Shown: in pieces, positions 826 through 25,780 of the stretch
How the letters are laid out: each line of letters begins with the position of its first letter
Numbering within the stretch: position 1 is the first letter of the stretch
Virus record (IMG/VR): IMGVR_UViG_3300033153_005141
Span: 1-30,053 of that record
Strand: one strand, 5' to 3'
Source: a virus
DNA: 30,053 bases
Made by a program: the position numbers and the translations under genes
Notes under the pieces: generated by a model
Databases searched by the model: none
What the model was told of the DNA's origin: nothing
The model's input: only the letters and a program-made list of their open reading frames with translations

Positions 826-827
826 AT

Positions 828-1073: not shown

Positions 1074-1074
1074 A

Positions 1075-1254: not shown

Positions 1255-1448
1255 AATTTTGCCATTTTAATATGCGAACAATCCCGTTTATACATTGAAG
1301 CCACACAATCGCAAAAATACTTATTATTTTCATCAACTTCCACAATATGATAGCTATTAGGTTCTGATTTACTGGGGACTTTATATTTTTTAACTATCTT
1401 TCCTCTGCCAGTTCGTTCTTGAACATAATCTTGGAGTGTCTTACTCAT
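1242..1448 (-). CDS. SWIM zinc-finger mini-protein
   Basis: 68 residues. The C-terminal half shows the SWIM pattern CxC-x8-CxH: Cys46, Cys48, Cys57 and His59 (FCDC...DCSH). SWIM domains bind zinc and are found in DNA- or protein-binding partners of recombination and transposition proteins. Here the domain stands almost alone after a basic N-terminus. It overlaps the candidate ssDNA-binding gene by 8 nt and shares its opening pattern (M-S/T-KTL-Q/D-D/E-Y), which may reflect common origin or a shared interaction motif. A recombination accessory role is inferred from the neighbouring exonuclease. Confidence 0.7.
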   Translation of the reverse strand: MSKTLQDYVQERTGRGKIVKKYKVPSKSEPNSYHIVEVDENNKYFCDCVASMYKRDCSHIKMAKLWKK

Positions 1449-1803
1449 CTCTATCTACAGGCACTTCCTCAAACTTATCTTTTTCCTCTAATGGGAAATC
1501 AGTTTTAAATACTTCCACTTCATACTTTGTATCCATACCCTCGCCTGTTCTGGTAATCTTAATCTTAGAGTCTTCTTTTACTTCACTCATCTGGTCGGCA
1601 AAAGAAGCTGACTGGCTATCTAAGTTCCGAACCTGTTTATCTTCTAAATCTTCTAAAAGATAACGGGCATACTCTTTAGTTTCTCCAAAGCTATCTTTTT
1701 CTATAAACTTGTATCCTTTATATACACAGGAATAGCTTTCTCCTGCTTTTATACTAACGAAGTTTGATTTTGATTTAGCGTATTCGTCTAATGTTTTTGT
1801 CAT
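1441..1803 (-). CDS. Candidate ssDNA-binding (OB-fold-like) protein
   Basis: 120 residues with alternating beta-type segments in the first 100 and a strongly acidic tail ending VPVDRDE. This size, the beta-rich body and the acidic C-terminus resemble phage single-stranded DNA-binding proteins, and it lies three genes downstream of a Cas4-like exonuclease and next to a SWIM protein, a typical replication/recombination setting. No diagnostic OB-fold motif can be proved by eye. The assignment is inference from shape and context; structure prediction against SSB folds would settle it. Confidence 0.45.
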   Translation of the reverse strand: MTKTLDEYAKSKSNFVSIKAGESYSCVYKGYKFIEKDSFGETKEYARYLLEDLEDKQVRNLDSQSASFADQMSEVKEDSKIKITRTGEGMDTKYEVEVFKTDFPLEEKDKFEEVPVDRDE

Positions 1804-1824
1804 AATAGTTTTTTATTATATTTA

Positions 1825-2052
1825 TTAAATTATTATTTCAGATTTTTCAAATGGAACTTCAAGCTCTTTATGAAATGCCAATGATTTCTTAAAGTTATCC
1901 ATTGCTATTTTTTGGGCTTTTTCTAACTTTTTATGAAATCCATTTTCTAATATGCTTTGTTTATTTTCTCCACGATAACACCATAATCCACAACACCACT
2001 TTTTAATACTTGGAAAGTATTTTATTTCTTGTGTTAATTTTAAGTTTTCCAT
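1825..2052 (-). CDS. 75-residue hypothetical protein
   Basis: Starts MENLKLTQEIKYFPSIKKW, contains a CCGLWCYRG cluster, then a predicted helix rich in Lys and Ala. The first half reads as a short beta hairpin with aromatic residues, the second as an amphipathic helix. Gaps of 21 nt downstream and 9 nt upstream place it in the leftward operon. No recognised family; the cysteines lack a classic zinc spacing. Confidence 0.5.
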   Translation of the reverse strand: MENLKLTQEIKYFPSIKKWCCGLWCYRGENKQSILENGFHKKLEKAQKIAMDNFKKSLAFHKELEVPFEKSEIII

Positions 2053-2061
2053 AATTTTTAT

Positions 2062-2730
2062 TTATTCTTTATTATCCTTACAATGAGAATGATAGCGACA
2101 GAATTTGCTACGCCAGTCCTTATCGTCATAAAGGGGAAGAATAGATGGGTCTTTTTTCTTCCACGCTTTATTAAGCAGTTCTAACTCTTTCATAACTTCG
2201 TTATAGAGTGCCTTATTATCCCTTAAGACGGGATATTGGAGTATAGTCATATCATCTTTGCTGACATACACTAAACTGCCCTTAGATATCTTTGTAAGCC
2301 ATAGATAGAGCCATAGCTGGTATTGATGATGCCTATGTGCGCCTTCTCCCTTCTTCTCCATCCACCAAAAGGACTTTGAGTGTTTGGATTTAATCTCGTA
2401 TAACTCTGTATCTCCATTAACTCCGAGTTTTAAGTCAGCATAACCTGATACATTTAAATCTTTGTCTTCTACTCTAATCTGGGTTTCTACTTTGATGTTA
2501 GGATTTAAGGTTAGCTGTTCTACTACCCAATCCTCAATCTTATTTCCTATATCAAATACTCTTAAAGTTCTATCGTCTATTTCTGTATCTGGTTTAACGC
2601 CTAATCGTTCATAATAAACACCTCTTAAACAAGAACCTAATCTGCTGATATGCCAAGAAGTTATTTCTTTCTTTTCTCTTTTATTCTTTTCTTTAAGAGT
2701 TTTGTTGATTATGTCTTGAATTGGAATCAT
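2062..2730 (-). CDS. Cas4/RecB-type PD-(D/E)XK exonuclease
   Basis: 222 residues. Visible hallmarks: Cys34 in LGSCLRGVYYERLG, the acidic residue Asp99 in GYADLKL, the E-x-K catalytic pair Glu112/Lys114 in YEIKSK, a QxxxY motif at Gln138-Tyr142, and Cys211 and Cys217 in FCRYHSHC. One N-terminal and clustered C-terminal cysteines around a PD-(D/E)XK core are typical of Cas4/AddB-like nucleases that carry an iron-sulfur cluster, though only three candidate ligands are clear here. Such phage enzymes degrade DNA ends during recombination and replication. The start overlaps the upstream coiled-coil gene by 4 nt. Confidence 0.85.
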   Translation of the reverse strand: MIPIQDIINKTLKEKNKREKKEITSWHISRLGSCLRGVYYERLGVKPDTEIDDRTLRVFDIGNKIEDWVVEQLTLNPNIKVETQIRVEDKDLNVSGYADLKLGVNGDTELYEIKSKHSKSFWWMEKKGEGAHRHHQYQLWLYLWLTKISKGSLVYVSKDDMTILQYPVLRDNKALYNEVMKELELLNKAWKKKDPSILPLYDDKDWRSKFCRYHSHCKDNKE

Positions 2731-3020
2731 TTTACTAATTGAAATCTTAATGACTCTGAAACTTTAGATATAGCAATTCCATTTTCTTCTTCAGCTTTTT
2801 TTAATTCCTTTATTGCTCCTTCTGATAATTTAATAGCATTAGAATATGTCCAAGTTTTCTTTTCTACTAATGAAAATGTTCCTAATGGATTTTTAACTTG
2901 ATTAAGTTCATTCTTTTTCATTTCTTCTAAACATTTTACTGATAGCTCTTTCTTTTGGTCTTCTAACTTTTTAATTTGAGTTTGAATGTCAATATATTCA
3001 ATAAATACTTTTTCTTCCAT
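2727..3020 (-). CDS. Coiled-coil protein of the recombination cluster
   Basis: 97 residues: a charged N-terminal helix with heptad-like hydrophobics (residues 5-38), a short beta-type segment (GTFSLVEKKTWTYS, about 47-60), then a second helix. This helix-strand-helix layout is common in small phage proteins encoded beside Cas4-like or RecB-like nucleases, whose biochemical role is mostly unknown. Its stop overlaps the nuclease start (ATGA type), suggesting matched expression. A partner or modulator role is inference. Confidence 0.6.
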   Translation of the reverse strand: MEEKVFIEYIDIQTQIKKLEDQKKELSVKCLEEMKKNELNQVKNPLGTFSLVEKKTWTYSNAIKLSEGAIKELKKAEEENGIAISKVSESLRFQLVK

Positions 3021-3027
3021 AATAGTT

Positions 3028-3288
3028 TTATTTAGATTTACTATTTTGTTCTTCTTCTAACCTTCTTTCTTCCACTTCTTCTGGATTAAAGTCAGGTTCG
3101 TCTATTAATTCTCCTATTAACGACATTTGTTGTTCGTGAGCTTTGAATACTTTTTTTAGTTCTTTGTTTTCCATTGTTTTATTTAAAGAAGCAAGATATT
3201 CCTCTGGAAAGGGTTTAAGCAAGTAAATGCTGAACAGCCAACTTGCCTCTTGCTTCTTTAAATGTTCACCATTAATTAATCCCCCCAA
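3028..3288 (-). CDS. 86-residue hypothetical protein, TTG start
   Basis: The frame begins at TTG 3288 inside the last 13 nt of the upstream gene; no in-frame ATG occurs until residue 39. The overlap has the form NTG, purine tract, TAA, repeated at three other junctions of this operon, which supports TTG as the real start. The protein has a hydrophobic helix (about 16-40) and an acidic, glutamate-rich tail. No family recognised. Confidence 0.5.
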   Translation of the reverse strand: MGGLINGEHLKKQEASWLFSIYLLKPFPEEYLASLNKTMENKELKKVFKAHEQQMSLIGELIDEPDFNPEEVEERRLEEEQNSKSK

Positions 3289-3458
3289 TAATACTTGTTA
3301 TCCTCCTCTTCTTCTTCTGCGTCTATTCTTTCTCTTGACTCCTCTTCTAAACTTTGTCTTTTGTTAGCTTCTGCTGTTAGACGCTTTGACTCTTCTTCGG
3401 TAAGAAGACCTTTTCTGATTTGTTTGCGATAGATAGCTGGCTGGGTTAGTTTAGTCAT
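3276..3458 (-). CDS. 60-residue charged protein
   Basis: MTKLTQPAIYRKQIRKGLLT opens the protein; the middle is helical and the end is a long acidic run (DAEEEEEDN) before YYWGD. It overlaps both neighbours, by 8 nt upstream and 13 nt downstream, so it is embedded in the coupled chain. An acidic surface of this kind occurs in DNA-mimic or adaptor proteins, but nothing further supports that. Confidence 0.5.
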   Translation of the reverse strand: MTKLTQPAIYRKQIRKGLLTEEESKRLTAEANKRQSLEEESRERIDAEEEEEDNKYYWGD

Positions 3459-3648
3459 AATTTTGTTTTATATTAGGTTTATATTCTCCACAATAATCAT
3501 TTTCTGAATTATGAGGATAATAAACTCCTAAATTACCAGAAAAAGTTATAGATGGAGGAAGTCTTTTACAATATCCAAAACCTTTTCTATCACGAAAGTT
3601 TTCTACTTTCTCAAAATACTTACAATTTTTACAGGTTTGTTTTTTCAT
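3451..3648 (-). CDS. 65-residue cysteine-rich zinc-site protein
   Basis: Opens MKKQTCKNCKYFEK; further cysteines lie in GYCKRLPP (near 27) and DYCGEYKP (near 53). The pattern CxxCxYF...YCxRxPP...DYCGE is a recurrent small phage/bacterial protein type with a four-cysteine metal site and no assigned function. The ATG overlaps the TGA of the 23-residue membrane peptide gene. The four cysteines and the conserved tail motif make it clearly coding. Confidence 0.7.
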   Translation of the reverse strand: MKKQTCKNCKYFEKVENFRDRKGFGYCKRLPPSITFSGNLGVYYPHNSENDYCGEYKPNIKQNYD

Positions 3649-3716
3649 ATTAATACCAAACTAATAAACGCCATTACTACTAAACATATCATTCCTATTA
3701 GGGCTTGATTGTCCAT
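3645..3716 (-). CDS. 23-residue membrane micropeptide
   Basis: A short ORF from ATG 3716 gives MDNQALIGMICLVVMAFISL plus VLI: a short polar head followed by one continuous hydrophobic segment, long enough for a single membrane pass. It ends in an ATGA overlap with the next gene and starts 6 nt after the stop of the zinc-finger gene upstream. Tight packing on both sides argues for coding; the tiny length argues for caution. Confidence 0.4.
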   Translation of the reverse strand: MDNQALIGMICLVVMAFISLVLI

Positions 3717-3722
3717 AATAGT

Positions 3723-3896
3723 TTATTTATTTATTTTTGCTTTGCCGACCTTTTTTGTTTCTCTTAAATCTTTATTTTTATTGAAGAAACATAATCCACA
3801 AGTAGAAGTATTACCTTTTTTATTATCATATCCAGCAAAACTCATTTCATTTTCTCCAAATTCTTTTTTACAAATTGAACATTTATTTTTTTTCAT
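3723..3896 (-). CDS. 57-residue zinc-finger protein
   Basis: Starts MKKNKCSICKKEFGENEMSF and has a second pair, CGLC, near residues 33-36. Two CxxC pairs about 24 residues apart form a probable treble-clef or zinc-ribbon site, and the C-terminus is very basic (KVGKAKINK). Small size and basic charge fit nucleic-acid binding. Its start lies in the last 14 nt of the upstream basic-helix gene, in the repeated NTG-purine-stop overlap. Confidence 0.6.
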   Translation of the reverse strand: MKKNKCSICKKEFGENEMSFAGYDNKKGNTSTCGLCFFNKNKDLRETKKVGKAKINK

Positions 3897-4026
3897 TGTT
3901 ATTTTTTTTTATTTGGTCTAATAGTTTATTTTGTTTCTGTTGTAATCCTTTTATTTTTAGAATTCGTTTTCTTGATCGTCTTATTTTTTCATTTAACACT
4001 TTGATTTTTTTGTCTTTTTTATCCAT
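3883..4026 (-). CDS. 47-residue basic coiled-coil peptide
   Basis: ORF from ATG 4026, opening MDKKDKKIKVLNEKIRRSRK. It is almost all Lys/Arg/Asn/Gln with isoleucine and leucine at heptad-like spacing, reading as one long basic helix. It overlaps the following zinc-finger gene by 14 nt. About 80 nt of non-coding sequence separates it from the upstream gene at 4107. Low-complexity A-rich DNA can give such an ORF by chance, so coding status rests on the overlap and position. Confidence 0.4.
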   Translation of the reverse strand: MDKKDKKIKVLNEKIRRSRKRILKIKGLQQKQNKLLDQIKKNNNEKK

Positions 4027-4106
4027 ATATTTTTTAGTTATGATTTATTACCTCATCCTTATATTTTAATCTTATCATACCAAGATACCTTGTCAACCTC
4101 AACCTG

Positions 4107-4367
4107 TTAATAACTTTTCTCCCCCCTCATAATCCACTCCACTTCTTCTTTACTAATTAAGATTTTACTACTACAACGACATCTAACAAGCTTCTCGGAA
4201 TTGTCGTCTATTCTTACTAAACACCATTTTCCACAAGATATACACTTGATTAAGATATTGAACCAATTTCTATCGTAATCGTTAAAATAACACTCTCTGG
4301 AACAATACTTTTGTTTATTGTGATGAGTGTTGTAGGAGTTATTATAAGATATACATTGTTTTATCAT
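4107..4367 (-). CDS. 86-residue cysteine-rich protein
   Basis: Cysteines at CISYNN (5), YCSREC (22, 26), KCISCGKWC (near 42-49) and RCRC (near 63-65) give at least seven potential metal ligands, arranged as a CxxxC knuckle followed by a CxxC zinc ribbon. This may be two small zinc modules. It lies in the leftward operon among similar proteins. No enzymatic motif; nucleic-acid or protein binding is inferred. Confidence 0.6.
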   Translation of the reverse strand: MIKQCISYNNSYNTHHNKQKYCSRECYFNDYDRNWFNILIKCISCGKWCLVRIDDNSEKLVRCRCSSKILISKEEVEWIMRGEKSY

Positions 4368-4393
4368 GGTTTGTTATTATTTTTCTTCTTCCC

Positions 4394-4534
4394 CTAATAA
4401 TCAATGTCCTTGCCTCCACATTCGGCTTTATTTTTACAAGTCCATACTTTTTTAAAACCAGAAGAACTTATAAGCATAGGAGTAAGGCAATTTGAACAAA
4501 GCGAAGCGATTTTTTGTGGTTTAATTTTTCTCAT
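4394..4534 (-). CDS. 46-residue zinc-ribbon micro-protein
   Basis: ORF from ATG 4534 to TAG 4394, opening MRKIKPQKIASLCSNCLTPM. The pair CSNC (near 13-16) is followed by C and C near 33 and 39 (TCKNKAEC), giving a four-cysteine set. Its start sits in the last 14 nt of the upstream gene (ATG, purine tract, TAA), supporting both genes. Function unknown. Confidence 0.5.
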   Translation of the reverse strand: MRKIKPQKIASLCSNCLTPMLISSSGFKKVWTCKNKAECGGKDIDY

Positions 4535-4802
4535 AATGTTTTAAAACCATTATCGTCTTTTTCTCCATCATCTTTATTTCTTCAAAATTACCTTTAGGCA
4601 TCCAAAATGTTCTTCCACAATCATTACATTGATATTTATTATAACGAGTGGCAAATTGTGCCCAAGGTGAACTATATTCAATCTTTGTTTCTCCACCAAG
4701 CCCATAATCATTATATTCTATACAATTCATATACTTGTGATGTCCAAGCATATGCCATAAGTTGTATTTTTTTTTATAACATTGTTTTATTTCTTTTGTC
4801 AT
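4521..4802 (-). CDS. 93-residue protein with CxxC knuckle
   Basis: Histidine- and tyrosine-rich N-terminal half (LWHMLGHHKY, with Cys8 and Cys27 nearby), then CNDCGRTFWMPKGNF near residues 59-73. C-x2-C-G-R-x-F-W is the second knuckle of many zinc ribbons, and the upstream histidines or cysteines may complete the site. The gene is second in line from the operon promoter. No family assigned. Confidence 0.55.
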   Translation of the reverse strand: MTKEIKQCYKKKYNLWHMLGHHKYMNCIEYNDYGLGGETKIEYSSPWAQFATRYNKYQCNDCGRTFWMPKGNFEEIKMMEKKTIMVLKHYEKN

Positions 4803-4803
4803 A

Positions 4804-4842
4804 TTATTTAGTTTCTTCTATTTCTGGTTTGGGTTTTCTCAT
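4804..4842 (-). pseudogene. Duplicated gene tail (12-residue ORF)
   Basis: A mini-ORF from ATG 4842 reads MRKPKPEIEETK. Its end, and about 24 nt of DNA including the stop and the flank into the next start codon, match the end of the gene at 1075-1254 (EPEIEETK, then the next start). It looks like the remnant of a second copy of that gene reduced to its tail, or a tail duplicated together with the translation-start region that follows it. Expression is possible but unproven. Confidence 0.35.
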
Positions 4843-4843
4843 A

Positions 4844-5434
4844 TTATTTATAAACTATATCTTTCTTATTACCATTAAACTCAAGCCATTGGCCGCCCTC
4901 TTTAGGAATACACCAGAGTTTACCTTTGACATCTCTAACTTCTAAATCGTTATAATAGGGTTTTTTCCCATCTTCTCTTTTTTTAAAAGAAGAAGGATTT
5001 GTATTCTTATTCTTATTAAGATTAAGATTAAGATTAGAATTAAGATAGTTCAAAGGGTATGTATAGGGTATAGATAGGGTATTCAATCTATATCGTATTG
5101 ATTGGGGTATTTTATCTAAAATTGTCTCTATTCCTGTCTTTATTAGAGGACTTCTGTTATATTCTTGATGTTTTGGGAAGTTAGCTATTATTATCCAACT
5201 ATCAATATAGGTTATTTTTTTATCTTTTTTAAACTTTTTAAGTATATTATTAACTGCTTTCATTTTTATTCCAGTATCAAAAGATATTTGTTTTAAAGAT
5301 ATTTCATAAATCCCAGCTATATTTGTTAGAGGATTTGTTAGAAAGTATAAAAATAAATACTTTTGAGTAGGATCTAAATCTGAAATATAGCTATCAGTCC
5401 AGAATTTTGTATTAATATAGCGATGACTTGCCAT
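4844..5434 (-). CDS. Replication initiator/organizer-like protein
   Basis: 196 residues from ATG 5434 (MASHRYINTKFWTDSYISDL). The N-terminal 90 residues resemble the winged-helix domain of phage replisome organizers: an R-x-I-x-x-x-FW-x-D opening, a helix LDPTQKYLFLYFLTNP, and recognition-helix-like SLKQISFDTGI. A low-complexity Asn/Leu/Lys linker and a short C-terminal part follow. This start is chosen because the promoter -10 box lies at 5532-5537, so the longer TTG frame from 5551 would begin upstream of transcription. It is the first gene of the early operon. Family-level role, loading replication machinery at an origin, is inferred. Confidence 0.65.
   Translation of the reverse strand: MASHRYINTKFWTDSYISDLDPTQKYLFLYFLTNPLTNIAGIYEISLKQISFDTGIKMKAVNNILKKFKKDKKITYIDSWIIIANFPKHQEYNRSPLIKTGIETILDKIPQSIRYRLNTLSIPYTYPLNYLNSNLNLNLNKNKNTNPSSFKKREDGKKPYYNDLEVRDVKGKLWCIPKEGGQWLEFNGNKKDIVYK
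5003..5046. repeat. Hexamer-like low-complexity repeat
   Basis: Imperfect tandem copies of TTAAGA/TTATTC lie inside the replication-initiator-like gene and encode an alternating Asn-Leu then Asn-Lys stretch (roughly residues 127-142 of the 196-residue product). It probably forms a flexible linker between the N-terminal winged-helix region and the C-terminal tail and is prone to length change by slippage. Confidence 0.6.
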
Positions 5435-5447
5435 TATAAAACGAAGC

Positions 5448-5523
5448 GCCTCCAAACCAGTGAAGGCGTGGAGGCACAACTTTAAGCTCAAAATTGTATT
5501 AGTGTGATAGTTGCCTTCACTGG
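5448..5523 (-). promoter_or_regulatory. 5' leader with interleaved helices of the early operon
   Basis: On the - strand the leader contains arm a (CCAGTGAAGGC, 5523-5513), arm b (GCCTCCA, 5475-5469), a' (5467-5457, complementary to a over 11 nt) and b' (5454-5448, complementary to b over 7 nt). The order a-b-a'-b' is pseudoknot topology. Only 2 nt lie between a' and b', so both stems may not form fully together and the element could be a two-state switch. Arm a begins about 2 nt after the predicted transcription start. The initiator-gene ATG is 13 nt downstream of b'. Confidence 0.65.
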
Positions 5524-5531
5524 ATACTTTA

Positions 5532-5559
5532 ATTTTATCAAACCAAGACAATAAGTCAA
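5532..5559 (-). promoter_or_regulatory. Sigma-70-type promoter, leftward early operon
   Basis: On the - strand TTGACT (5559-5554) and TAAAAT (5537-5532) are separated by 16 nt, with an extended -10 TGA just before the -10 hexamer. The predicted start is about 5525, leaving a 5' leader of roughly 90 nt before the replication-initiator-like gene. It faces away from the rightward promoter at 5597-5624, which has the same layout. Confidence 0.7.
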
Positions 5560-5596: not shown

Positions 5597-5624
5597 TTGA
5601 CTTTCTCTGTCAGTATGCTAAGAT
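5597..5624 (+). promoter_or_regulatory. Sigma-70-type promoter, rightward ncRNA
   Basis: TTGACT (5597-5602), 16-nt spacer, TAAGAT (5619-5624) with an extended -10 TGC. The predicted start is about 5631. No ORF begins within 300 nt, so the first product is a structured RNA. It forms a divergent pair with the leftward promoter. Confidence 0.65.
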
Positions 5625-5630
5625 AGAATC

Positions 5631-5957
5631 ACTCAAGCCATAGAAATTACCACTTGGGTTTTATGGGATAGTTGCTAGTTAGGAAGAACTAGATAGGAAG
5701 CAAGATGACAACTTACTTCTGAAATTATAATTAGGGTTGCGAATCCTTTTGGTGTTGCCCATCATTTCGTCTGGGGGTTAAAAGTTTCTAAGCCGAAGAG
5801 CCCGAAAGGGTGGGCGAAAGCCCCGTTCGGCAAAGAAGCGAACCAGTAAAAACCAATGGGGTGCGAATCCCCATCTATCCCTTACTATCATGACAAATCA
5901 AAATACTCATTTTAATAAAGATGAAACAGCCCTTTAAAAGTAGGGTTTTTATTTTTT
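5631..5957 (+). ncRNA. Candidate structured RNA with tRNA-like closing helices
   Basis: Non-coding stretch between a good promoter and a terminator-like hairpin. Visible helices: GGGATAG (5665-5671) with CTATCCC (5875-5881); hairpin CTAGTT/AACTAG with loop AGGAAG (5675-5692); a 6-bp hairpin with T-loop-like TGCGAAT (5856-5874) stacked directly on the closing helix; GCCGAA/TTCGGC (5792-5797 with 5826-5831) enclosing two GAAA tetraloop hairpins (5801-5810 and 5812-5823). The ends imitate the acceptor, D-like and T arms of a tRNA, as in tmRNA, but the tmRNA signature, the G3-U70 pair and a convincing tag are absent. GC-rich helices in AT-rich DNA support selection for structure. Family unknown. 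Confidence 0.65.
5930..5957 (+). terminator. Rho-independent-like terminator of the ncRNA
   Basis: CCCT (5930-5933) and AGGG (5942-5945) can pair around an 8-nt loop, with a further G-U pair below, followed by TTTTTATTTTTT (5946-5957). The stem is short but the U tract is strong. It ends 7 nt before the next ATG, so some read-through would express the small membrane protein. Confidence 0.45.
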
Positions 5958-8312: not shown

Positions 8313-8518
8313 ATCTTTTAAAAGCTCTTAAATCTCTATTCAAGAAAAAAGAACCAGTTAAGAAAAAAGAACCAGAAATAGTTGAAGAAATCAAAGAAGA
8401 CATCAAACCAGAAATAGAAAGCAAGTATAAAATAATAAAAGAATGTCCTGGTGGTTTTCATTCTTGGATAGAAAAAGACGGAAGAATAATGAGAAAAGAG
8501 AACAAATATGTCTATTAA
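8309..8518 (+). CDS. 69-residue lysine/glutamate-rich protein
   Basis: The ATG overlaps the TGA of terL. The first half is a charged helix with two near-identical KKKEP repeats (encoded by a short DNA repeat at 8346-8375); the second half is a compact strand-rich segment with GGFHSWIEKDGRIMRKENKYVY. Its end overlaps groES by 11 nt. Possibly a small TerL- or portal-associated factor, but no family is recognised. Confidence 0.55.
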   Translation: MNLLKALKSLFKKKEPVKKKEPEIVEEIKEDIKPEIESKYKIIKECPGGFHSWIEKDGRIMRKENKYVY

Positions 8519-8792
8519 ACCATTCAACGAAAATATCCTAATAAAACCCATAAAACCAGAAAAAACCAAGTCAGGACTTATCTATCCAGACACTAACAAG
8601 TCAGAAAACATAGCAGAAGGCGAAGTTATTTCAACTGGAGCAGGTCGTCATACTTTAGTGGGAGTCCTTCCCTTAAAGATAAAAAAAGGAGATAAAGTAA
8701 TTTTTATCCACTATTCTCCTCGTAAGATAAAGCATAAAGGAGAGGAGTTTATGCTTATTAGCGAGGATGATGTGTTGGCTGTGGTAGAATGA
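8508..8792 (+). CDS. groES: Phage GroES-like co-chaperonin
   Basis: 94 residues with the Cpn10 fold signature: FNENILIKPIKPEKTKSGL at the N-terminus, mobile-loop region TKSGLIYPDTNKSENIAEGEV, the GxGxR-like STGAGRH, and LKIKKGDKVIF before the C-terminal EGEEFMLI-type strand (here HKGEEFMLISEDDVLAVVE). Co-chaperonins cap the GroEL chamber through the mobile-loop tripeptide, here L-I-Y after SG. The gene lies just upstream of groEL with one small ORF between them. Encoding its own lid suggests host GroES is not matched to the phage GroEL or is not enough for capsid folding. Confidence 0.92.
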   Translation: MSIKPFNENILIKPIKPEKTKSGLIYPDTNKSENIAEGEVISTGAGRHTLVGVLPLKIKKGDKVIFIHYSPRKIKHKGEEFMLISEDDVLAVVE

Positions 8793-8968
8793 AAAACTTT
8801 GAAACCAGATTAAACGACCATAAACTCTCTTTAGAGTTATTATATTGCCTTATAAAAACACTCTTCTATCATTTAAAGTTAGATTATAAGATAGAGAGAG
8901 ATACGAGTGGGTATGTTATAAAAATTAAACCTAAAAAAAATGGACGAAAAAATAATACTATTCAATAA
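8789..8968 (+). CDS. 59-residue protein between groES and groEL
   Basis: ORF from ATG 8789, overlapping the groES stop (ATGA) and reading 29 nt into groEL. It opens MKNFETRLNDHKLSLELLYC and continues as an amphipathic helix, then a short strand and a basic tail. The overlap at both ends indicates a coupled groES-ORF-groEL unit. No family is recognised. An adaptor role for chaperonin substrates would be speculation. Confidence 0.45.
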   Translation: MKNFETRLNDHKLSLELLYCLIKTLFYHLKLDYKIERDTSGYVIKIKPKKNGRKNNTIQ

Positions 8969-10496
8969 AACAGCTAAAGACAAATTATTAAAAGGAATAA
9001 ACAAAGTAGCAGACGCAGTAAAGATAACGCTGGGTGCTACTGGCAGGAATGTAGTAATAAAAGATGAAGTAGTCCCAGCTTTCTCCACGAATGACGGAGT
9101 ATATATATCCCGTAAGATACACTTAAGAGATGAAGTAGAAGAAGCTGGAGCTGATATTATAAAAGGAGTAGCAGAACATACTAACGAAGCAGTAGGAGAT
9201 GGCACAACTACTTCAATCGTCTTGGCTCAAGCTCTTATTAACGAAGGATTAAAGTATAAGGTAAATCCCTTAAAGATAAGAGCTGGAATGAAAAAGGGAT
9301 TAGAAGTTCTTATCAAAGAGATAGAAAAGTTAGCCAAGCCTATTAAAACAAAAGAAGAAATGAAGCAGATAGCCACTATATCTGCTGAAAACGAGGAGAT
9401 AGGAGAGCTTATCGCTGATACTATCAAGGAAGTAGGGCAAGATGGTGTTATCAAGATAGAAGAGTCTAAGACATTTGGATTAGAGAAAGAAATAGTGGGA
9501 GGTATTCAGTTTAATAGTGGATATATATCTCCATATATGATAAATAAGTTTGATAAATTAGAAGCTGAATATGAAGATCCATTGTTCTTAATAACTGATA
9601 AAAAGATTTCTATGGCTAAGTCTGAATTGATGCCCATATTAGAGAAAGTAGCCCAATCAGGTAAGAAAGAGCTGGTAGTCATAGCAGAAGATATAACTGA
9701 TTCAGCTTTAGCTACCTTAGTAGTTAATAAAGAAAGAGGTTTGTTTAATGCTCTGGGGATAAAAGCACCCGATAAGGAAGTATTACAAGATTTAGCTCTT
9801 ATTACTGGAGCAACGCTAATATCAGAGGAAACAGGATTAAGATTAGAAAGTTTTGAGATGAAACATCTGGGTAAAGCTAAGAAAGTAATTTCCACTAAAG
9901 ATAATACTACGATTATAGGGGGTAAGGGTAATGTTAAAGATAAAATTAAGCAAATTAAGGCAGAAATAGAGAAATCTAAACAATCTGCTGATTTATTAGA
10001 AAGATTAGCTCGTCTTACAGGAGGAATAGCAGTTATTAGCGTAGGCGCTGCTACTGAAATAGAGAGAAAAGCCAAGCAACACAAGGTAGAAGATGCTCTG
10101 AATGCTACTAAAGCTGCTGTTGATGGAGGGATTGTGGCAGGGGGGGGAGTTGTGTTGTTAAGATTAAGGAAAACAAAGATGTATGCTTATGATAAAGATG
10201 AAGAAACAGGAAGTAAGATATTAAAAAAGGCATTAGAAGCTCCTATTAAGCAGATGGCAGAAAACGCTGGATTAGAGGCAGATAAACTTATAGCAAGTAT
10301 ATTAGAAAAAGACGAAATAAATTACGGATACAATTTTAATACTAATAAATACGAGGATTTAGTTGAGAATAAAGTAGTTGACCCAGCTAAGGTCCTAATA
10401 TCTACATTAACCAATGCTGTTTCAGCTGCTGGTATATTTCTTACAACAGATTGTGTTATAGCAAAAAAAAGGTTGCCATTAAATAATGGCAGATAA
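8940..10496 (+). CDS. groEL: Phage-encoded GroEL-type chaperonin
   Basis: 518 residues, group I chaperonin. ATP-site residues are intact: Asp52 in TNDGVYISR, Asp87 in VGDGTTTS, the VEDALNATKAA segment with the catalytic Asp equivalent to E. coli 398, and IVAGGGV. The apical domain is recognisable (GIQFNSGYISPYMINK). Differences from cellular GroEL: the GFGDRRK loop after KAP is shortened (IKAPDKEVLQD), the stretch after the GGG motif is altered, and the Gly-Gly-Met tail is absent. The protein would form a folding chamber for phage proteins, probably capsid subunits. It sits between packaging and portal genes, and its last 11 nt overlap the portal start. Confidence 0.95.
   Translation: MDEKIILFNKTAKDKLLKGINKVADAVKITLGATGRNVVIKDEVVPAFSTNDGVYISRKIHLRDEVEEAGADIIKGVAEHTNEAVGDGTTTSIVLAQALINEGLKYKVNPLKIRAGMKKGLEVLIKEIEKLAKPIKTKEEMKQIATISAENEEIGELIADTIKEVGQDGVIKIEESKTFGLEKEIVGGIQFNSGYISPYMINKFDKLEAEYEDPLFLITDKKISMAKSELMPILEKVAQSGKKELVVIAEDITDSALATLVVNKERGLFNALGIKAPDKEVLQDLALITGATLISEETGLRLESFEMKHLGKAKKVISTKDNTTIIGGKGNVKDKIKQIKAEIEKSKQSADLLERLARLTGGIAVISVGAATEIERKAKQHKVEDALNATKAAVDGGIVAGGGVVLLRLRKTKMYAYDKDEETGSKILKKALEAPIKQMAENAGLEADKLIASILEKDEINYGYNFNTNKYEDLVENKVVDPAKVLISTLTNAVSAAGIFLTTDCVIAKKRLPLNNGR
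10473..10492 (+). promoter_or_regulatory. Hairpin over the portal start codon
   Basis: TTGCCATT (10473-10480), loop AAAT, AATGGCAG (10485-10492): an 8-bp stem with a terminal T-G pair. The portal ATG (10486-10488) is in the 3' strand. Since groEL is translated through this hairpin, ribosomes on groEL would open it, so portal translation is probably coupled to groEL translation. Confidence 0.5.
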
Positions 10497-15430: not shown

Positions 15431-15479
15431 CTTATCCCTTGTAGATAAGCGAGTTATCGGGTTCTCGTTAAAAAACCCG
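15431..15479 (+). promoter_or_regulatory. Hairpin plus H-type pseudoknot after the capsid gene
   Basis: A hairpin CTTATC/GATAAG (15431-15436 with 15444-15449) is followed by stem 1 CGAG/CTCG (15450-15453 with 15464-15467) and stem 2 CGGGTT/AACCCG (15458-15463 with 15474-15479). Loops are 4, 0 and 6 nt. It lies 33 nt after the capsid stop and could protect the 3' end of capsid mRNA or the 5' end of a processed downstream mRNA. Confidence 0.6.
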
Positions 15480-15488
15480 CCAACAAAG

Positions 15489-15534
15489 CAACTAACTTTA
15501 CTGTCCAAGTTAGTTGATTAAGGAAACGACAGTA
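15489..15534 (+). promoter_or_regulatory. Pseudoknot over the endonuclease start
   Basis: A 10-bp perfect stem CAACTAACTT/AAGTTAGTTG (15489-15498 with 15507-15516). Its loop TACTGTC (15499-15505) is complementary to GACAGTA (15528-15534), whose last A is the first base of the endonuclease ATG. The 11-nt linker carries AAGGA, one of the few Shine-Dalgarno-like sequences here. The fold would hide both the ribosome site and the start codon, implying tight translational repression. Confidence 0.65.
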
Positions 15535-15821
15535 TGAGAACTCTTTTAATCAAAAAAAACTCAACAAAAGCTGAAAGAATTGTAGGTGAAGAATTAAAAA
15601 GACGCCATATTCCTTTCAGACATAGAGTTTTAATTGATGGAAGAGAATATGACTTCTTAATTGGAAAACGCCTTATTGTAGAAATCGGAAACCATATTGT
15701 TAAGAAAGAGAAAAACATAGATATTCTCAATAAGGGTTATAGTTTATTTGACTTTTCTAATGAAGAAGTGGTCGTCAATTTACAAATGATTATTAAAAAA
15801 ATACAAAAATATGGCAACTGA
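15534..15821 (+). CDS. DUF559/Vsr-like free-standing endonuclease
   Basis: 95 residues, starting MRTLLIKKNSTKAERIVGEE. It matches the DUF559/very-short-patch-repair-like layout: STKAExxxxxxLKxRxIPFxxxxxI, then YDFLIG (Asp40), LIVEIGNH (Glu50, Gly52, His54) and KGYSLFDFSNEEV. Family members usually have EIDGxxH; here Gly replaces Asp and N-H follows directly, so activity is uncertain. Such small nucleases often act as solitary homing-type mobile genes. It interrupts the virion gene order between capsid and next structural gene, overlapping the latter by 11 nt. Translation appears sealed by a pseudoknot. Confidence 0.75.
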   Translation: MRTLLIKKNSTKAERIVGEELKRRHIPFRHRVLIDGREYDFLIGKRLIVEIGNHIVKKEKNIDILNKGYSLFDFSNEEVVVNLQMIIKKIQKYGN

Positions 15822-18648: not shown

Positions 18649-20034
18649 ATGCCTATACAGATACCTCTTACGGATTTATTAGTTAATAATCCAAGAACAT
18701 TTCTTACTGCTGATTCCACGCCAAATTCATTAAATTTAATAATAAAAAGCACTGTTGGCTTTAATTTTAATGATATTATTCTTGTAGGAGAACCGGGAAA
18801 TGAAGGTTCAGAAATTGTGTCAGCTGTATCTGGAACTACTCCATTTACATTAATGACATTATCCACTCCTATTAATTTCCCTCATAGTGCTAATGCCTCT
18901 ATACGAGTTATTGATTATGATAAAGTTCAGATTCTTTCAGCTCCAACTTTAATTGCTACTAAAGAAGCTATAACTACTCCTTTATTAGTTGGGGATAATT
19001 TAGAAACCGTATCTACATTAACTACACCTTCAACAGGTTTTTATTTTGCTAGATTCTTTAATAGTGTAACTCAAAGTTTCTCTGATTATTCAGATGGAGT
19101 TCCAGTAGCAGGATATACGCAATTTATGGCTCGGTCTATTATAGATAATGCTTTGGGGATGATAAATAAAAAGACATCAGAAACTTTACCTGATGAATAT
19201 GCCTTTAGTGAAATTAGTAATTGTCAAATAGAAGTTATCCGAGAGTTTAAAAGATGGAGTTTCTTACAAGAGTTTGATGCTAACTTAGGAGCTTTAACAG
19301 TTGGAAATTGGAGAGTGGCTTTGCCTTCTGATTGCGATGATCAGAATAGCAATAGATCAATCTATAATTTCCGTATAGCAGCAGAGAGGAATATAATTTG
19401 GGTAGATAAAGAGAAATGGAATGCTATTACCCAAAATGTAATTCATAGCACTACATCATCACCTATTGCTGTCGGAAACCTTAAAATATATGTAACTGAT
19501 CCTTCTGATTTTGCTGATGATGGTAGTGTTAAAATAAGAGGAAACTCTTATGATTATACTGCTAATGATAGAACTAATGGGATTTTAACTATTACAGCTG
19601 CTACTACTACTGCTTTAAATGGAGATGATATATTTCAAGGAGGTTCAAGTGGAAATCCTACTTATTGGACTACTTTTGGAGGCTATTTATATTTCTATCC
19701 TTATTTAAGTTCAAATTATGACCAACGAGATGGACATCTTGACTATTATAAGAAGATGACAGAGATAGTATCTGATACTACTGAAATTGTTTTACCAGAT
19801 CCTACTGTTGTTCAATATTATTTAGCTTGGAAGTTTTTATTGCGACAAAAAAATGGAGAAGAAGATAATGCTTCTCGTTCAATGTATAACAGATATGTTG
19901 AGAGAAGAGAAAGGTTGAAAAGTAAAGAGACAATGAATAGAACAGCTAAATTTAAACCCCTGCTTAATAGATTGAATCAAGAGTATGAAGATACAGAGGG
20001 ACGAAAAATCAGAACGCAGGGATTTCTTCCCTGA
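18649..20034 (+). CDS. Connector/tail-tube adaptor-like protein
   Basis: 461 residues from ATG 18649, chosen over an upstream TTG because AGGG lies 5 nt before it. The N-terminal half is beta-rich (a repeated short strand pattern), and a helical adaptor-like segment (MARSIIDNALGMINKKTSET, then EYAFSEISNCQIEVIREFKR) begins near residue 160, resembling the helical core of podovirus head-tail connector proteins. An arginine-rich C-terminus follows. It would bind beneath the portal and carry the nozzle protein encoded next. The end overlaps the next start by 1 nt. Confidence 0.55.
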   Translation: MPIQIPLTDLLVNNPRTFLTADSTPNSLNLIIKSTVGFNFNDIILVGEPGNEGSEIVSAVSGTTPFTLMTLSTPINFPHSANASIRVIDYDKVQILSAPTLIATKEAITTPLLVGDNLETVSTLTTPSTGFYFARFFNSVTQSFSDYSDGVPVAGYTQFMARSIIDNALGMINKKTSETLPDEYAFSEISNCQIEVIREFKRWSFLQEFDANLGALTVGNWRVALPSDCDDQNSNRSIYNFRIAAERNIIWVDKEKWNAITQNVIHSTTSSPIAVGNLKIYVTDPSDFADDGSVKIRGNSYDYTANDRTNGILTITAATTTALNGDDIFQGGSSGNPTYWTTFGGYLYFYPYLSSNYDQRDGHLDYYKKMTEIVSDTTEIVLPDPTVVQYYLAWKFLLRQKNGEEDNASRSMYNRYVERRERLKSKETMNRTAKFKPLLNRLNQEYEDTEGRKIRTQGFLP

Positions 20035-21515
20035 TGCCTGTTAATCCTTTAAAAATACGAGATTTCAGCAGAGGAGTTATAAGAAAATCATCTGTAAGTA
20101 ATGATTTAGTTCCTTTAAATAGTGTAGCTCATAGCATAAATGTTAATTATGATGAGATTATAGGGGCAGCAAAAGTAAGAAAGGGAACTACTCTGTTAGG
20201 AGCAGTAGTATCAGCTGGTTCAACTCCTCTTGGTTTAACTGAATTCGTAGGAGCAAACGACTCTCCTAATACTTTAATATCCATATTTACAGGAGCGCTT
20301 AATGCTACGATATATTTCTACGATACTGCTATATCTGATTGGGGAACTTCTACGGTAACTAATCTTGATAATAACGCTAAAGTAAGAACAGCAGTATTTA
20401 ATGATAGAGTATTTATAGTTAACGGAATTACCTCTGCTCGTTCATCTTTAGATATTGGCAATGACTGGAATTATGAGAATACGCCTAATAATGTTATTCC
20501 ATCATTAATATTCAGAACTAAAGAACGATTGATATGCGCTGGAGTTCCTGCTTATCCAGATAGAGTATATTTTTCATCTGTGATTGATCCGACTGCCGCA
20601 CCTTTTATAACTTGGAATAATGATAATGATACTGGAGATTTTATAGATATAAATCCTAACGATGGTTCAAATATAACTGGTTTTGCTGAATCTTCTAATC
20701 AAACACTTATATTCAAAGAACACGCTTTATACAGAATGAATGTCATCTCTAAAACAGTTGATAATGAAAGTATCTCTAATGTAGGAGCAGTTTCACAAGA
20801 GGGAATAACAACTTGTCAGGGAATAGTGTATTTCTTTAGTGGAATTGATATTAGAAGAACTAATGGAGGTTATCCAGAACAGATTTCACGGTTAGGAGTT
20901 CAAGATTGGATAGATGCTATTCCACAAGCTAATTGGAAGAATGTTGTTGCTGGACAAGATGGCTGGAATGTTACTTTCGCCATAGGAGATATTACTTTAA
21001 ATGAAAATCAAGATAATGAAAGAACATACAAGAATGTAGAATTGAAGTTTTCTACAAGAGATGAAACTTGGTCAGTTCATTCTAAAGCAGATAGATATAG
21101 AGCATTTGCTAATTATACTACTGAAACAGATGGCAGAAAAATGGTAGGAGCTGAAAGAGATGGAGCAGTTCAGACAATAGATAAAGGAACGACTGATAAC
21201 ACTACTCCAATATATTACGAGTTAGAAACACAAGAGCAAGAATTTGGAAATAGATTTCATCTTAAAAAGATTTCAGACAAATTAAGCGTGATTTGTCAAT
21301 ATGGATTAGATGGCGCTTTCCAAGCAAAAGAGAATGATGGAGATTTTAAGGATTTGAATATAACTTTAAATAAAAGAGTGAATATAGGGCAAAAGATTAA
21401 TTTAGAGGGTAATTTCTTCACTTTTAGGTGGTATGGTAATTCCAGCCAAAAAGCTCCTATTTTAGAGGGGATTTATGTGGAAAACATAACAGATTTAGGA
21501 TTTATAAAAAAATGA
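20034..21515 (+). CDS. Tail nozzle-like beta-propeller protein
   Basis: 493 residues. Opening MPVNPLKIRDFSRGVIRK and following SVAHSINVNYDEIIGAAKVRKG are typical of podovirus tail-hub/nozzle proteins (P22 gp10-like) and related siphovirus proteins; further repeats such as VFNDRVFIVNGITS, DRVYFSSVIDPTAA and GFAESSNQTLIFKEHALYRM read as propeller blades. The protein would extend the portal-connector channel and seal DNA. Neighbours on both sides are tail genes. Strong fold impression, but family identity is not proven here. Confidence 0.7.
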   Translation: MPVNPLKIRDFSRGVIRKSSVSNDLVPLNSVAHSINVNYDEIIGAAKVRKGTTLLGAVVSAGSTPLGLTEFVGANDSPNTLISIFTGALNATIYFYDTAISDWGTSTVTNLDNNAKVRTAVFNDRVFIVNGITSARSSLDIGNDWNYENTPNNVIPSLIFRTKERLICAGVPAYPDRVYFSSVIDPTAAPFITWNNDNDTGDFIDINPNDGSNITGFAESSNQTLIFKEHALYRMNVISKTVDNESISNVGAVSQEGITTCQGIVYFFSGIDIRRTNGGYPEQISRLGVQDWIDAIPQANWKNVVAGQDGWNVTFAIGDITLNENQDNERTYKNVELKFSTRDETWSVHSKADRYRAFANYTTETDGRKMVGAERDGAVQTIDKGTTDNTTPIYYELETQEQEFGNRFHLKKISDKLSVICQYGLDGAFQAKENDGDFKDLNITLNKRVNIGQKINLEGNFFTFRWYGNSSQKAPILEGIYVENITDLGFIKK

Positions 21516-22304: not shown

Positions 22305-23624
22305 ATGCCAATTACTACATCACAAGGAAAAATGCCTTCAATAGGAGAAGTTTATATAGAAAAAACTTATTCTGGCCAACCGGGTTATTTTAGGATTTTC
22401 AAAATGACAGAACAAGGCCCAGATTTTTATAAAGAAGATAAAGCTCATTTTTATCAGCCTTCTACTGGAAAGATATATAAATCGGGAACTACTACTCAAT
22501 TTGAAGATACAGGAGAGAAATTAGACACTACACCTCCTAAATATAATACAGCAGATGTAAGTTCTTTTGCTGAAAGTGCTGAATTTGCTCAAATACAGGG
22601 AGTTCCATATACAGGAAGGCAACGATATACAGAACAGCAATTAACTGGGGAAGTTCCTAAAATAGGAGAAGTTGGAGGAGTTGGAGTGCCTAGAGGAACT
22701 ACGCCTACTCAAGGAGGAGGACAACCTACAACTCACGAAGTTAGAGAGGGAGAAACGCTTTCTCAAATAGGACAGAGATACGGAGTAGATTGGAGGCAGA
22801 TAACAGGATTTCGTTCTGGAGACCCGGACCTTATTTATCCGGGTGAAGTTTTAAATATACCTTCTGGTGCTGGAGGACAAGTTCCAGGACAAATCGCTCC
22901 TACTGGGCAACCAGGCGACACAGGAGGTGTTTCAGGGAGGGGAATAGTAGGAGGAGATGGTGGAGTGCCAATATCAAATATCCCTGAAGAAATAAGAAAT
23001 ATGTTAAGTCCTGAAGAATTATCATTCTGGGAGCCGATGTGGGCATTTTTAGCTCAAAAACAAGAACAAGGAAAAGAAATTCCGCCAGTTCTTTCACCTG
23101 CTGAATTAGATTCACTTTGGCAAGAAGCAAAAGCAGATCCAGTCATTTCCAAATATTTTTCTGATCAATTAAGAATAGGAGAAACAAATTTAACTAATAT
23201 GATAGCGGATGTAGCCGAAGAAAGTGGACAGTGGAGTCGTGAACAAAGTGAGGTATTTAAGCAACAACGAATAACAGGAGCAGAAGAAGCTGTAGCTGGA
23301 GGCAGAGCATTTTCAGGCTACCGTCAACAAGCCCGAGAGCGTCTTCAAAGGGAACAAACAGGTATAGTTTCTTCAACAAGGCGACAATTACAAAGACAAT
23401 TACGCCAAGCAGGACAAGCATTTGAAACTGCGTTTGGAACTGCTCAACTTCCAACAATGGGATTACCTTTTACTGATCCTCTTACTAAAAAAACTGAACA
23501 ACTACAATTTCAATCATACGGAGATATTGCTGGAGGTGCGGCAACCGAACAATTATCAGCAGAAGAACAAAGGTATCAAGATTTAATAAGAGAAAGTTTA
23601 CAACAGAAAGGAGCTTACTATTGA
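22305..23624 (+). CDS. Virion protein with LysM peptidoglycan-binding domain
   Basis: 439 residues. A single LysM module lies at about 143-187 (HEVREGETLSQIGQRYGVDW through LIYPGEVLNIP), flanked by Gly/Pro/Thr linkers. The rest has an N-terminal strand-rich region and a long C-terminal helical, glutamine-rich half (RQLQRQLRQAGQAFETAFG). LysM binds peptidoglycan; in a virion it could hold the tail or an ejected protein against the cell wall. Its stop overlaps the -35 region of the strong promoter at 23621. No lysozyme motif is seen. Confidence 0.75.
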   Translation: MPITTSQGKMPSIGEVYIEKTYSGQPGYFRIFKMTEQGPDFYKEDKAHFYQPSTGKIYKSGTTTQFEDTGEKLDTTPPKYNTADVSSFAESAEFAQIQGVPYTGRQRYTEQQLTGEVPKIGEVGGVGVPRGTTPTQGGGQPTTHEVREGETLSQIGQRYGVDWRQITGFRSGDPDLIYPGEVLNIPSGAGGQVPGQIAPTGQPGDTGGVSGRGIVGGDGGVPISNIPEEIRNMLSPEELSFWEPMWAFLAQKQEQGKEIPPVLSPAELDSLWQEAKADPVISKYFSDQLRIGETNLTNMIADVAEESGQWSREQSEVFKQQRITGAEEAVAGGRAFSGYRQQARERLQREQTGIVSSTRRQLQRQLRQAGQAFETAFGTAQLPTMGLPFTDPLTKKTEQLQFQSYGDIAGGAATEQLSAEEQRYQDLIRESLQQKGAYY

Positions 23625-23649
23625 CAATTTAATAAGGAAATCTTATAAT
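23621..23649 (+). promoter_or_regulatory. Perfect consensus sigma-70 promoter
   Basis: TTGACA (23621-23626), 17-nt spacer, TATAAT (23644-23649). All twelve hexamer bases match consensus. The predicted start is about 23656, next to the first base of the pseudoknot. The -10 box lies in the 5' arm (23639-23651) of an inverted repeat whose 3' arm touches the HNH start codon, so transcripts from this promoter lack the 5' arm. Confidence 0.85.
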
Positions 23650-23730
23650 TAAAGTAAAGCTGTTGGTTTTTATTATGCCCCCGCATAGCCAACAGCTTAG
23701 CGGGGGCGTTTATTAACTAATTATAAGATT
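23639..23730 (+). repeat. 13-bp perfect inverted repeat flanking the HNH leader
   Basis: AATCTTATAATTA (23639-23651) and its exact reverse complement (23718-23730). The 3' arm ends at the base before ATG 23731. In a read-through transcript the two arms would pair and hide the start region; in a transcript from the internal promoter the 5' arm is missing. Confidence 0.75.
23657..23707 (+). promoter_or_regulatory. GC-rich interleaved helices at the HNH mRNA 5' end
   Basis: Stem 1 AAGCTGTTGG (23657-23666) with CCAACAGCTT (23689-23698), 10 bp; stem 2 GCCCCCGC (23677-23684) with GCGGGGGC (23700-23707), 8 bp. The order is a-b-a'-b'. Only one base separates the two 3' arms, so full simultaneous pairing is strained; partial pseudoknot or two-state folding is likely. 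An 8-bp all-G/C helix in AT-rich DNA is unlikely by chance. Confidence 0.7.
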
Positions 23731-24456
23731 ATGATTAAAAGAAACTCAAAAGGACAATTTGTTAAAGGAATTATTCCACATAATAAAGGAAAGCAATGGT
23801 CTAAAAAGCATAAAATAAAACTTAAGTTAGCTTGGATTAAAAGAAAGGAAAAAGGATATATAACTTGGAATAAGGGAAAACATATAAAAGTTAACGATGC
23901 TTTAAAAATATGGAGAGAAAATGGAGGTCAACCTTGGAATAAAGGTAAAAAAGAATTACAAGTTGCTTGGAATAAAGGAAAGGAAATGTCTAATAAATAT
24001 AGAAAAAAATGTAGTAAAGCACAAAAAGGAAAAAAACTTTCTAAAGAAACAAAAAATAAATTAAGTAAAATAGCAAAAGAAAATGGATTTGGTCAATGGA
24101 TGAAAGGTAAGAAGCTTTCTGAAGAAACAAAAAGGAAATGTAGTGAAGCACATAGAGGAAAAAAATCATATAACTATAAAGGTAATTCTAAATTATGTCA
24201 TCTTATAAGGAATTGTTATAAATATAAACAATGGACTAAAGCAGTTTTTGAAAGAGATAACTATATTTGCCAAAAGTGTAAAATAAGAGGAGGAAAACTC
24301 CACGCTCACCATATTAAAAAGTTTAGTTTAATTTTAGAAGAAAATAATATCAAATCATTAAAAGAAACACTTAATTGCGAAGAATTATGGAATATAAATA
24401 ATGGCATAACATATTGTAAAATATGCCATAAAATAATACATAAAAAATATGCCTAA
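23731..24456 (+). CDS. NUMOD3-HNH homing endonuclease
   Basis: 241 residues. Residues 15-147 contain repeated NUMOD3 DNA-binding elements: NKGK, WNKGK, PWNKGK, AWNKGK and KGKKLS-x-ETK repeats. The HNH core follows: Cys180/Cys183 in ICQKC, HAHH (His191-His194), Asn223/224, then CKICH (Cys229, Cys232, His233) and His237. Such enzymes nick or cut intron- or gene-specific sites and spread into endonuclease-less alleles. Lysine-rich, A-rich coding unlike its neighbours suggests transfer. It sits between two virion genes and overlaps the next by 8 nt. Confidence 0.9.
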   Translation: MIKRNSKGQFVKGIIPHNKGKQWSKKHKIKLKLAWIKRKEKGYITWNKGKHIKVNDALKIWRENGGQPWNKGKKELQVAWNKGKEMSNKYRKKCSKAQKGKKLSKETKNKLSKIAKENGFGQWMKGKKLSEETKRKCSEAHRGKKSYNYKGNSKLCHLIRNCYKYKQWTKAVFERDNYICQKCKIRGGKLHAHHIKKFSLILEENNIKSLKETLNCEELWNINNGITYCKICHKIIHKKYA

Positions 24457-25780
24457 CCCTACTAATTTATACGAATACTATACTTCAAAAGGTCAACAAT
24501 TACCTTCAATTCAAGAAAGGGGTGTTTTATATTCTCAACAAGGATTAGGAACTGGATATACTGGAACAGCAGAACAAAATACTGCTTTACTTCAAAAACT
24601 ATCGGTAGGAGATATTTCAGGAACTATGACTATTCCTCCGGTAGGAACTACACCTACTACTCCAACTCCACCACTAGCAGGAGGAACGCCAGAAACGACA
24701 GGAGGACAAACAGGTATGGGAACTACTGATCCTATGAGATTTTATACAATAATGGATCAGATGAGTCAGAAGCTTAATAAAAATCAAGAATTAGTTGATA
24801 TGAGGAATAAGGTGTTTACTCATTTATACGATAGGCCTTTGACAGATGAGGAGAGAGGTGCTTTGACTCCGGAGCTTCAGCACGCAATAGAAACCAATGA
24901 CTTTAATTTGATAAATTTTCACGTAAGAAAAATTAATGACGAAATTAAGGGTAGGAAAGACACTTTAGATCAGAGTATTGAATTCCTTTCAAGAGGATAT
25001 GAATTACAACAGCAACAAATTGAAAGCCAAAGAGAACGAGCAGAAAGTATTTTAATGAGTGGTTTAGAAAAATATGGAGGCGATATATTAAACATTTATA
25101 GTCCTGAACAAATAGAACAATTAAGAAATATGGGATATGACATTGCTGGAATTGCCGGATTGCCAAGTGTAGAAGAAATAAAGGCAGGATTAAAGGGGGG
25201 AATTGGAACAATTCCCGGACAAACAATATCCTATGAACAATTATCTCCTACTGCTAAATTAGTTGTTGATGGAACTTTTAAACTATCTGATATTACTCCT
25301 ACTCAAAAACAAGCGATAGCCAGTGAATTAGTTGCTTATGGATTTACTTATGCTATGGCTCAAGCAGATCAACAGAATGTTAGTTATATTAAAAATCAGT
25401 TAATGGGTGGAGGAGAAATAACATCTGATGAAAGTGTATTAGGTTCTTGGAAGAAAATACCCGATCAATATAAAGGACTTATTCAAGGTGCTTGGGGAGA
25501 ACTTATAGGAAAAAAGATAAGTCCTGAAGTAGCGAGATTTAAAGCTTCTCAAGGAATAGTAGGTATGCAACTTACACGATTATATGAAAAGGGTCGTATT
25601 TCCGATCAAGACAGGATATTTTATTTAAGTTTAATGCCTAATCTTTATATGAATGAAGCCGCAGCAGTAGCTGGGGCTAATGAATTAGTAAGATTATTAC
25701 AAGAAAAATTAACTAATCAAGTAAATGAATTAGAGGGTTTGGGAGCAACCCAAAATGATTGGGAATATATCCCAGAATAA
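24449..25780 (+). CDS. Internal virion/ejection-type protein
   Basis: 443 residues, opening MPNPTNLYEYYTSKGQQLPS. An extended N-terminus and Pro/Thr/Gly linker (about 65-95) precede long helices, with glutamine-rich coiled-coil LQQQQIESQRERAESILMSG, then a helical body to the end. Long helical proteins between tail and fibre genes in podoviruses are usually ejected into the cell to form a DNA-delivery channel. No lytic domain is seen. Assignment by architecture and position. Confidence 0.5.
   Translation: MPNPTNLYEYYTSKGQQLPSIQERGVLYSQQGLGTGYTGTAEQNTALLQKLSVGDISGTMTIPPVGTTPTTPTPPLAGGTPETTGGQTGMGTTDPMRFYTIMDQMSQKLNKNQELVDMRNKVFTHLYDRPLTDEERGALTPELQHAIETNDFNLINFHVRKINDEIKGRKDTLDQSIEFLSRGYELQQQQIESQRERAESILMSGLEKYGGDILNIYSPEQIEQLRNMGYDIAGIAGLPSVEEIKAGLKGGIGTIPGQTISYEQLSPTAKLVVDGTFKLSDITPTQKQAIASELVAYGFTYAMAQADQQNVSYIKNQLMGGGEITSDESVLGSWKKIPDQYKGLIQGAWGELIGKKISPEVARFKASQGIVGMQLTRLYEKGRISDQDRIFYLSLMPNLYMNEAAAVAGANELVRLLQEKLTNQVNELEGLGATQNDWEYIPE

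Follow-up and report, generated by a model that had tools for sequence, protein, structure and literature searches.

The window, i.e. the whole stretch of DNA analysed here, is a virus record of 30,053 bases with a GC content of 33%. One block of genes (~290-5550) is encoded on the minus strand, and the virion genes are located on the plus strand. By inspection, GroES-like and GroEL-like chaperonins are encoded at 8508-10496, beside the terminase and portal genes. Within the virion region, a gene for an HNH homing endonuclease is found between two virion-region genes and is preceded by a compact leader. The features of this locus are:

22305-23624, plus strand: upstream virion-region gene with a LysM domain; its TGA stop codon (23622-23624) lies inside the -35 hexamer
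23621-23626, plus strand: -35 hexamer TTGACA, perfect sigma-70 consensus
23639-23651, plus strand: 5' arm of the outer inverted repeat, AATCTTATAATTA, 13 bp, perfect
23644-23649, plus strand: -10 hexamer TATAAT, within the 5' arm
23657-23698, plus strand: stem S1, AAGCTGTTGG (23657-23666) pairing with CCAACAGCTT (23689-23698), 10 bp
23677-23707, plus strand: stem S2, GCCCCCGC (23677-23684) pairing with GCGGGGGC (23700-23707), 8 bp
23718-23730, plus strand: 3' arm of the outer inverted repeat, TAATTATAAGATT, directly abutting the HNH ATG at 23731
23718-23737, plus strand: alternative local hairpin TAATTATA/TATGATTA with the AUG inside, predicted in the short RNA (-2.4 kcal/mol)
23731-24456, plus strand: HNH homing-endonuclease gene with NUMOD3 motifs, 241 aa; its stop overlaps the start of the next gene
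24449-25780, plus strand: downstream virion-region gene, whose homologues begin 1-4 nt past the LysM-gene stop in relatives free of the insert

The HNH protein was matched by Pfam NUMOD3 (E 2e-12) and by HNH endonuclease PHROGs, and by inspection its HNH residues are conserved, in agreement with the homing endonuclease named in the original prediction. A comparison with phages lacking the HNH insert, which that prediction had called for, was possible in seven relatives reached via the neighbouring virion proteins and conserved in their flanking gene order. In these relatives the stop codon of the LysM-like gene and the start of the next virion gene are 1-4 nt apart, and it is exactly this junction that the 106-nt leader and the HNH gene occupy in the window. 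Hence, promoter, leader and HNH gene constitute one insertion. Judged from these sequences, the leader belongs to the cassette, and the two arrived or evolved together. The relatives identified via the terminase did not carry the flanking genes, and no member of this phage group was found in the bacterial genomes scanned. A different kind of interruption was seen in the virion protein at 20034-21515, the homologues of which are broken by inserts of 0.2-0.5 kb at differing places (L116, 1699-2285; L118, 5040-5578; L105, 12024-12265); these may represent an extra domain, an intron or an insertion.

Elsewhere in the family, HNH genes mostly start right at the preceding stop codon and are leaderless (L104, L106, L112), while the HNH gene of L105 has a promoter-like -10 six bases before its ATG. 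Strong promoter-like sites precede 5 of 26 HNH genes vs 6 of 111 other genes, which is only a modest enrichment.

The promoter and the outer repeat were found as originally described: a perfect TTGACA-N17-TATAAT (23621-23649) overlaps a perfect inverted repeat of 13 bp, the 5' arm of which holds the -10, while the 3' arm ends at 23730 and touches the ATG. Both elements exceed chance expectation. Perfect promoters occur twice in the window but averaged 0.037 over 300 dinucleotide-shuffled windows, and repeats of at least 13 bp with a span of up to 110 nt also occur twice, compared to 0.135 expected per window (400 shuffles); the other such repeat sits inside a coding sequence. The late-promoter motif TATAAATA is absent at the HNH promoter, where perfect sigma-70 -35 and -10 hexamers are found instead. 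From its sequence, the promoter is expected to be active, and the usual distance to the -10 places the predicted transcript start at ~23656, i.e. at the foot of stem S1. The second perfect TTGACA-N17-TATAAT promoter belongs to a minus-strand region (27895-27765) in which a hairpin and T-run (27809-27779) follow ~60-90 nt after the promoter, making it a candidate small RNA. On the plus strand at 5597-5881, a promoter-like site is combined with a structured stretch whose ends (GGGATAG ... CTATCCC) resemble those of a tRNA and which includes a T-arm-like GGGGTGCGAATCCCC, yet neither a tRNA or tmRNA nor an Rfam family was called there.

The symmetry of the outer repeat could also matter at the level of DNA or antisense RNA, either through face-to-face promoters as in IS10 or through an operator for the endonuclease as in I-TevI. 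TATAAT is present in both arms, and a minus-strand TTGAGT-N18-TATAAT (23749-23720; 10/12 promoter match) would, together with the HNH promoter, yield RNAs overlapping in the S1/S2 core. However, the symmetry of the repeat is by itself enough to create the minus-strand -10, and the accompanying -35 agrees with the consensus at only 4/6 positions. As to the operator, I-TevI is known to repress itself via an operator over its own promoter (PMC2988022), but the score of 13 for similarity between leader and insertion flank is also reached at 184 of 1500 other positions. An operator resembling the homing site, as in I-TevI, was rejected on this ground, the ATTTAATAAG match not being significant. We regard a role of the repeat in DNA or via antisense RNA as very unlikely.

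Between the outer arms lie the two inner stems, S1 and S2, which were not part of the original prediction. They are GC-rich, interlocked and non-overlapping, and they are arranged as in an H-type pseudoknot, with the loops L1, L2 and L3 measuring 10, 4 and 1 nt. Only 0.01 interlocked pairs of this kind (at least 10 and at least 8 bp, span up to 60) were expected per window from shuffles. Folding of the RNA 23635-23735 gave a z of -5.1, and none of 200 shuffles was equally stable. As hairpins alone, S1 and S2 have energies of -13.4 and -18.5 kcal/mol, and S2 is always favoured when pseudoknot terms are left out. The stem order suggests that a pseudoknot could form in the HNH leader. Nevertheless, an L3 of 1 nt across the 10-bp S1 strains a canonical H-type pseudoknot, so that partial fraying or alternation of S1 and S2 is possible; the stems may be alternatives to each other instead of coexisting.

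No close copies of the leader were detected in the viral contigs or in the phage collection, and the leader is absent before 18 HNH homologues and before the HNH genes at the relatives' other sites. Because no homologue was found, the fold of the HNH leader rests on one sequence and covariation lends it no support. No Rfam family reached its gathering score in the window; below threshold, the leader scored highest with STnc490 (22.4 bits vs 56 needed), a match at chance level like the others, and a known RNA family was consequently rejected. No tRNA or tmRNA was called.

The leader might derive from an unrelated mobile element, of which it would be a remnant or an end, and as a palindromic repeat it would then have no function for the HNH gene. 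Such a remnant would fit with the finding that no part of the leader recurs in the window or in the viral contigs searched for the inner stems. Against it, promoter, arms and stems are packed closely about the HNH start, and the promoter points into the HNH gene, making this origin highly improbable. A mobile-element repeat as such was rejected, since neither the arms nor the stems have a further copy in the window.

A GC-rich S2 hairpin in a genome of 33% GC, followed by GTTTATTAA, could also be taken for a transcription attenuator or terminator insulating the cassette from the late operon. We give this little credence: no plus-strand terminator-like call was made at the leader, the U-run is poor, and the downstream virion genes would be cut off unless the HNH promoter replaced their transcription. 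With the flanking virion genes forming a tight operon in the relatives, and with no plus-strand terminator-like site called before the HNH gene, read-through RNA across the leader very probably exists.

The original prediction held that such read-through mRNA hides the HNH start, while mRNA from the internal promoter cannot form the hairpin. The second part holds if transcription starts at the predicted ~23656, as the 5' arm is then missing from the short RNA and the outer helix cannot form. In the long RNA the outer helix is predicted with a probability of 0.5-0.9; it abuts the AUG, which is itself mostly unpaired. Opening of the region from -15 to +12 of the HNH start is calculated to cost 6.0-7.3 kcal/mol in the long RNA and 4.3-7.0 kcal/mol in the short RNA, energies that omit pseudoknot terms, which could cheapen closure of the outer helix in the long RNA. 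The long RNA was always harder to open, as the prediction requires, but by just 0.1-2.3 kcal/mol. Once the 5' arm is missing, as in the short RNA, the 3' arm instead pairs with the AUG in the weak hairpin TAATTATA/TATGATTA (probability ~0.9-0.96), so that strong hiding of the start in the read-through RNA only is not borne out. Eight other genes of the phage have starts less accessible than that of HNH. Moreover, nearly all genes in the whole window are without a Shine-Dalgarno sequence, the exceptions including the DUF559 gene (AAGGA) and a minus-strand gene at 27491. Since the genome hardly uses Shine-Dalgarno sequences, classical masking of a ribosome binding site does not apply to the HNH gene. 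In these models the switch idea is partly supported: its direction survives, its strength being unproven.

The near equality of the opening energies in the long and short RNA would equally suit a simpler arrangement, in which the cassette simply provides a promoter for the HNH gene and a stable structure at the 5' terminus (S2, perhaps with S1) protects the HNH mRNA, the outer repeat having little regulatory role. Transcription is predicted to begin right at the foot of S1, and the pairing probability of S2 is ~1 in long and short RNA alike. However, a 13-bp repeat of a kind expected just 0.135 times per window, with its end precisely at the ATG, is unlikely to be idle. We consider mRNA protection conceivable, yet doubtful.

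The explanation we propose, tentatively and at somewhat less than even probability for the whole, is a mobile cassette with its own promoter and a structured leader that moderately lowers HNH translation from read-through RNA. The cassette, inserted after the LysM stop codon and ahead of the start codon of the following virion gene, would have brought a host-type promoter and the leader with it. The promoter would yield a separate HNH transcript starting at the foot of the interlocked, pseudoknot-like two-stem element. In read-through RNA of the late operon, the extra 5' arm would pair just before the AUG and close the entire leader. The closed leader would moderately reduce HNH translation and separate the HNH gene from ribosomes finishing the LysM gene. 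While the sequence elements, their departure from chance and the insertion are plainly observed, promoter activity, the start site, pseudoknot formation and the translational effect of the leader are inferred.

A structured start was also found at a second nuclease gene of the window:

15489-15534, plus strand: DUF559 leader; hairpin 15489-15498/15507-15516, its loop (15499-15505) pairing with 15528-15534 and overlapping the ATG
15534-15821, plus strand: DUF559 nuclease-like gene inserted after the capsid gene; some relatives have it, others lack it

The same arrangement, with different sequences, is present upstream of the DUF559 ATG in five other phages: L093 (3618), L095 (1764), L096 (8449), L098 (3434) and L107 (7915). 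When loops were swapped among the phages, the matched pairing was reached in only 2 of 720 permutations, namely the identity and the exchange of two identical loops. An alignment of the six leaders shows covariation: both partners vary in 9 of the 12 base pairs, pairing is retained in 95.8% of cells, and none of the shuffles attained this. The result is somewhat favoured by an alignment hand-made from arms, loops and partners and by the window's partner sitting a few bases upstream of those of the other phages. On these comparisons, the evidence for a start-codon pseudoknot is stronger for the DUF559 leader than for the HNH leader, and this covariation-supported pseudoknot is independent evidence that RNA folding at the starts of nuclease genes is of importance to this group of phages. 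Between the capsid gene and the DUF559 leader (15440-15480), a possible small pseudoknot was noted (CGAG..CTCG, with loop CGGGTT pairing with AACCCG), and post-capsid regions are highly structured in several relatives too. A bolder proposal, which we consider improbable, is that HNH and DUF559 genes independently gained pseudoknotted leaders at their start codons restraining translation from abundant RNA of the late operon, with the host-type HNH promoter inside the fold giving an early translatable RNA and so reversing the T4 timing.

Endonuclease genes that invade essential operons need to be expressed without harm to the host genes. In T4 and Aeh1 this is solved by a late promoter inside an inhibitory hairpin: for I-TevI, I-TevII, I-TevIII, segB, Aeh1 mobE, e and soc, a helix in the long RNA covers the ribosome binding site, and a late promoter is placed within the helix's 5' strand or adjacent to it (PMC2988022, PMC3014915). 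The logic that the original prediction ascribed to T4 e, soc and I-TevI with late promoters is thus established. According to the T4 review, middle and late, but no early, promoters are dedicated to endonuclease genes. One of the closest parallels is Aeh1 mobE, likewise a free-standing HNH endonuclease gene in a phage operon, with a promoter just upstream and a hairpin over the start region that forms only on longer RNAs (PMC2988022, PMC3014915). A late promoter serves mobE, and its hairpin conceals a Shine-Dalgarno sequence, whereas the HNH gene has no such sequence, its promoter is of host type and its leader arms enclose an interlocked stem pair. The T4 leaders (I-TevI, I-TevII, I-TevIII, segB, e and soc) share a promoter in or next to the 5' strand and a short RNA without the inhibitory helix. 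They differ in having late or middle promoters and sequestered ribosome binding sites, the I-Tev genes being located in introns, whereas the short HNH RNA is predicted to fold its start region into a local hairpin. Aeromonas phage 25 seg43 also has a very stable hairpin immediately upstream of, and excluding, its start, but its ribosome binding site is free after the stem and the review describes no promoter within the stem. A phage mRNA with a pseudoknot close to its 5' end is likewise known from the T4 gene 32 leader; that pseudoknot is a gp32 binding site, whereas no protein partner is known for the HNH leader.

With the I-TevI/segB/mobE type, the HNH locus shares a homing endonuclease, empty sites in relatives and a predicted short RNA lacking the 5' strand; it does not share a late or middle phage promoter. 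By analogy the HNH leader may work like this type, but it is not filed as a proven member because its promoter is not late and because hiding of the AUG and freeing of the start are ambiguous in the folding models. A related but not identical design, as originally predicted, describes it well, given the sigma-70 promoter. The layout itself is already known; new compared to T4 and Aeh1 are the host-type promoter and the interlocked, pseudoknot-like core. A similar layout in an unrelated phage that uses a host-type promoter and hardly any Shine-Dalgarno sequences would point to repeated evolution of the promoter-in-hairpin arrangement, without an obligatory role for masking of a ribosome binding site.
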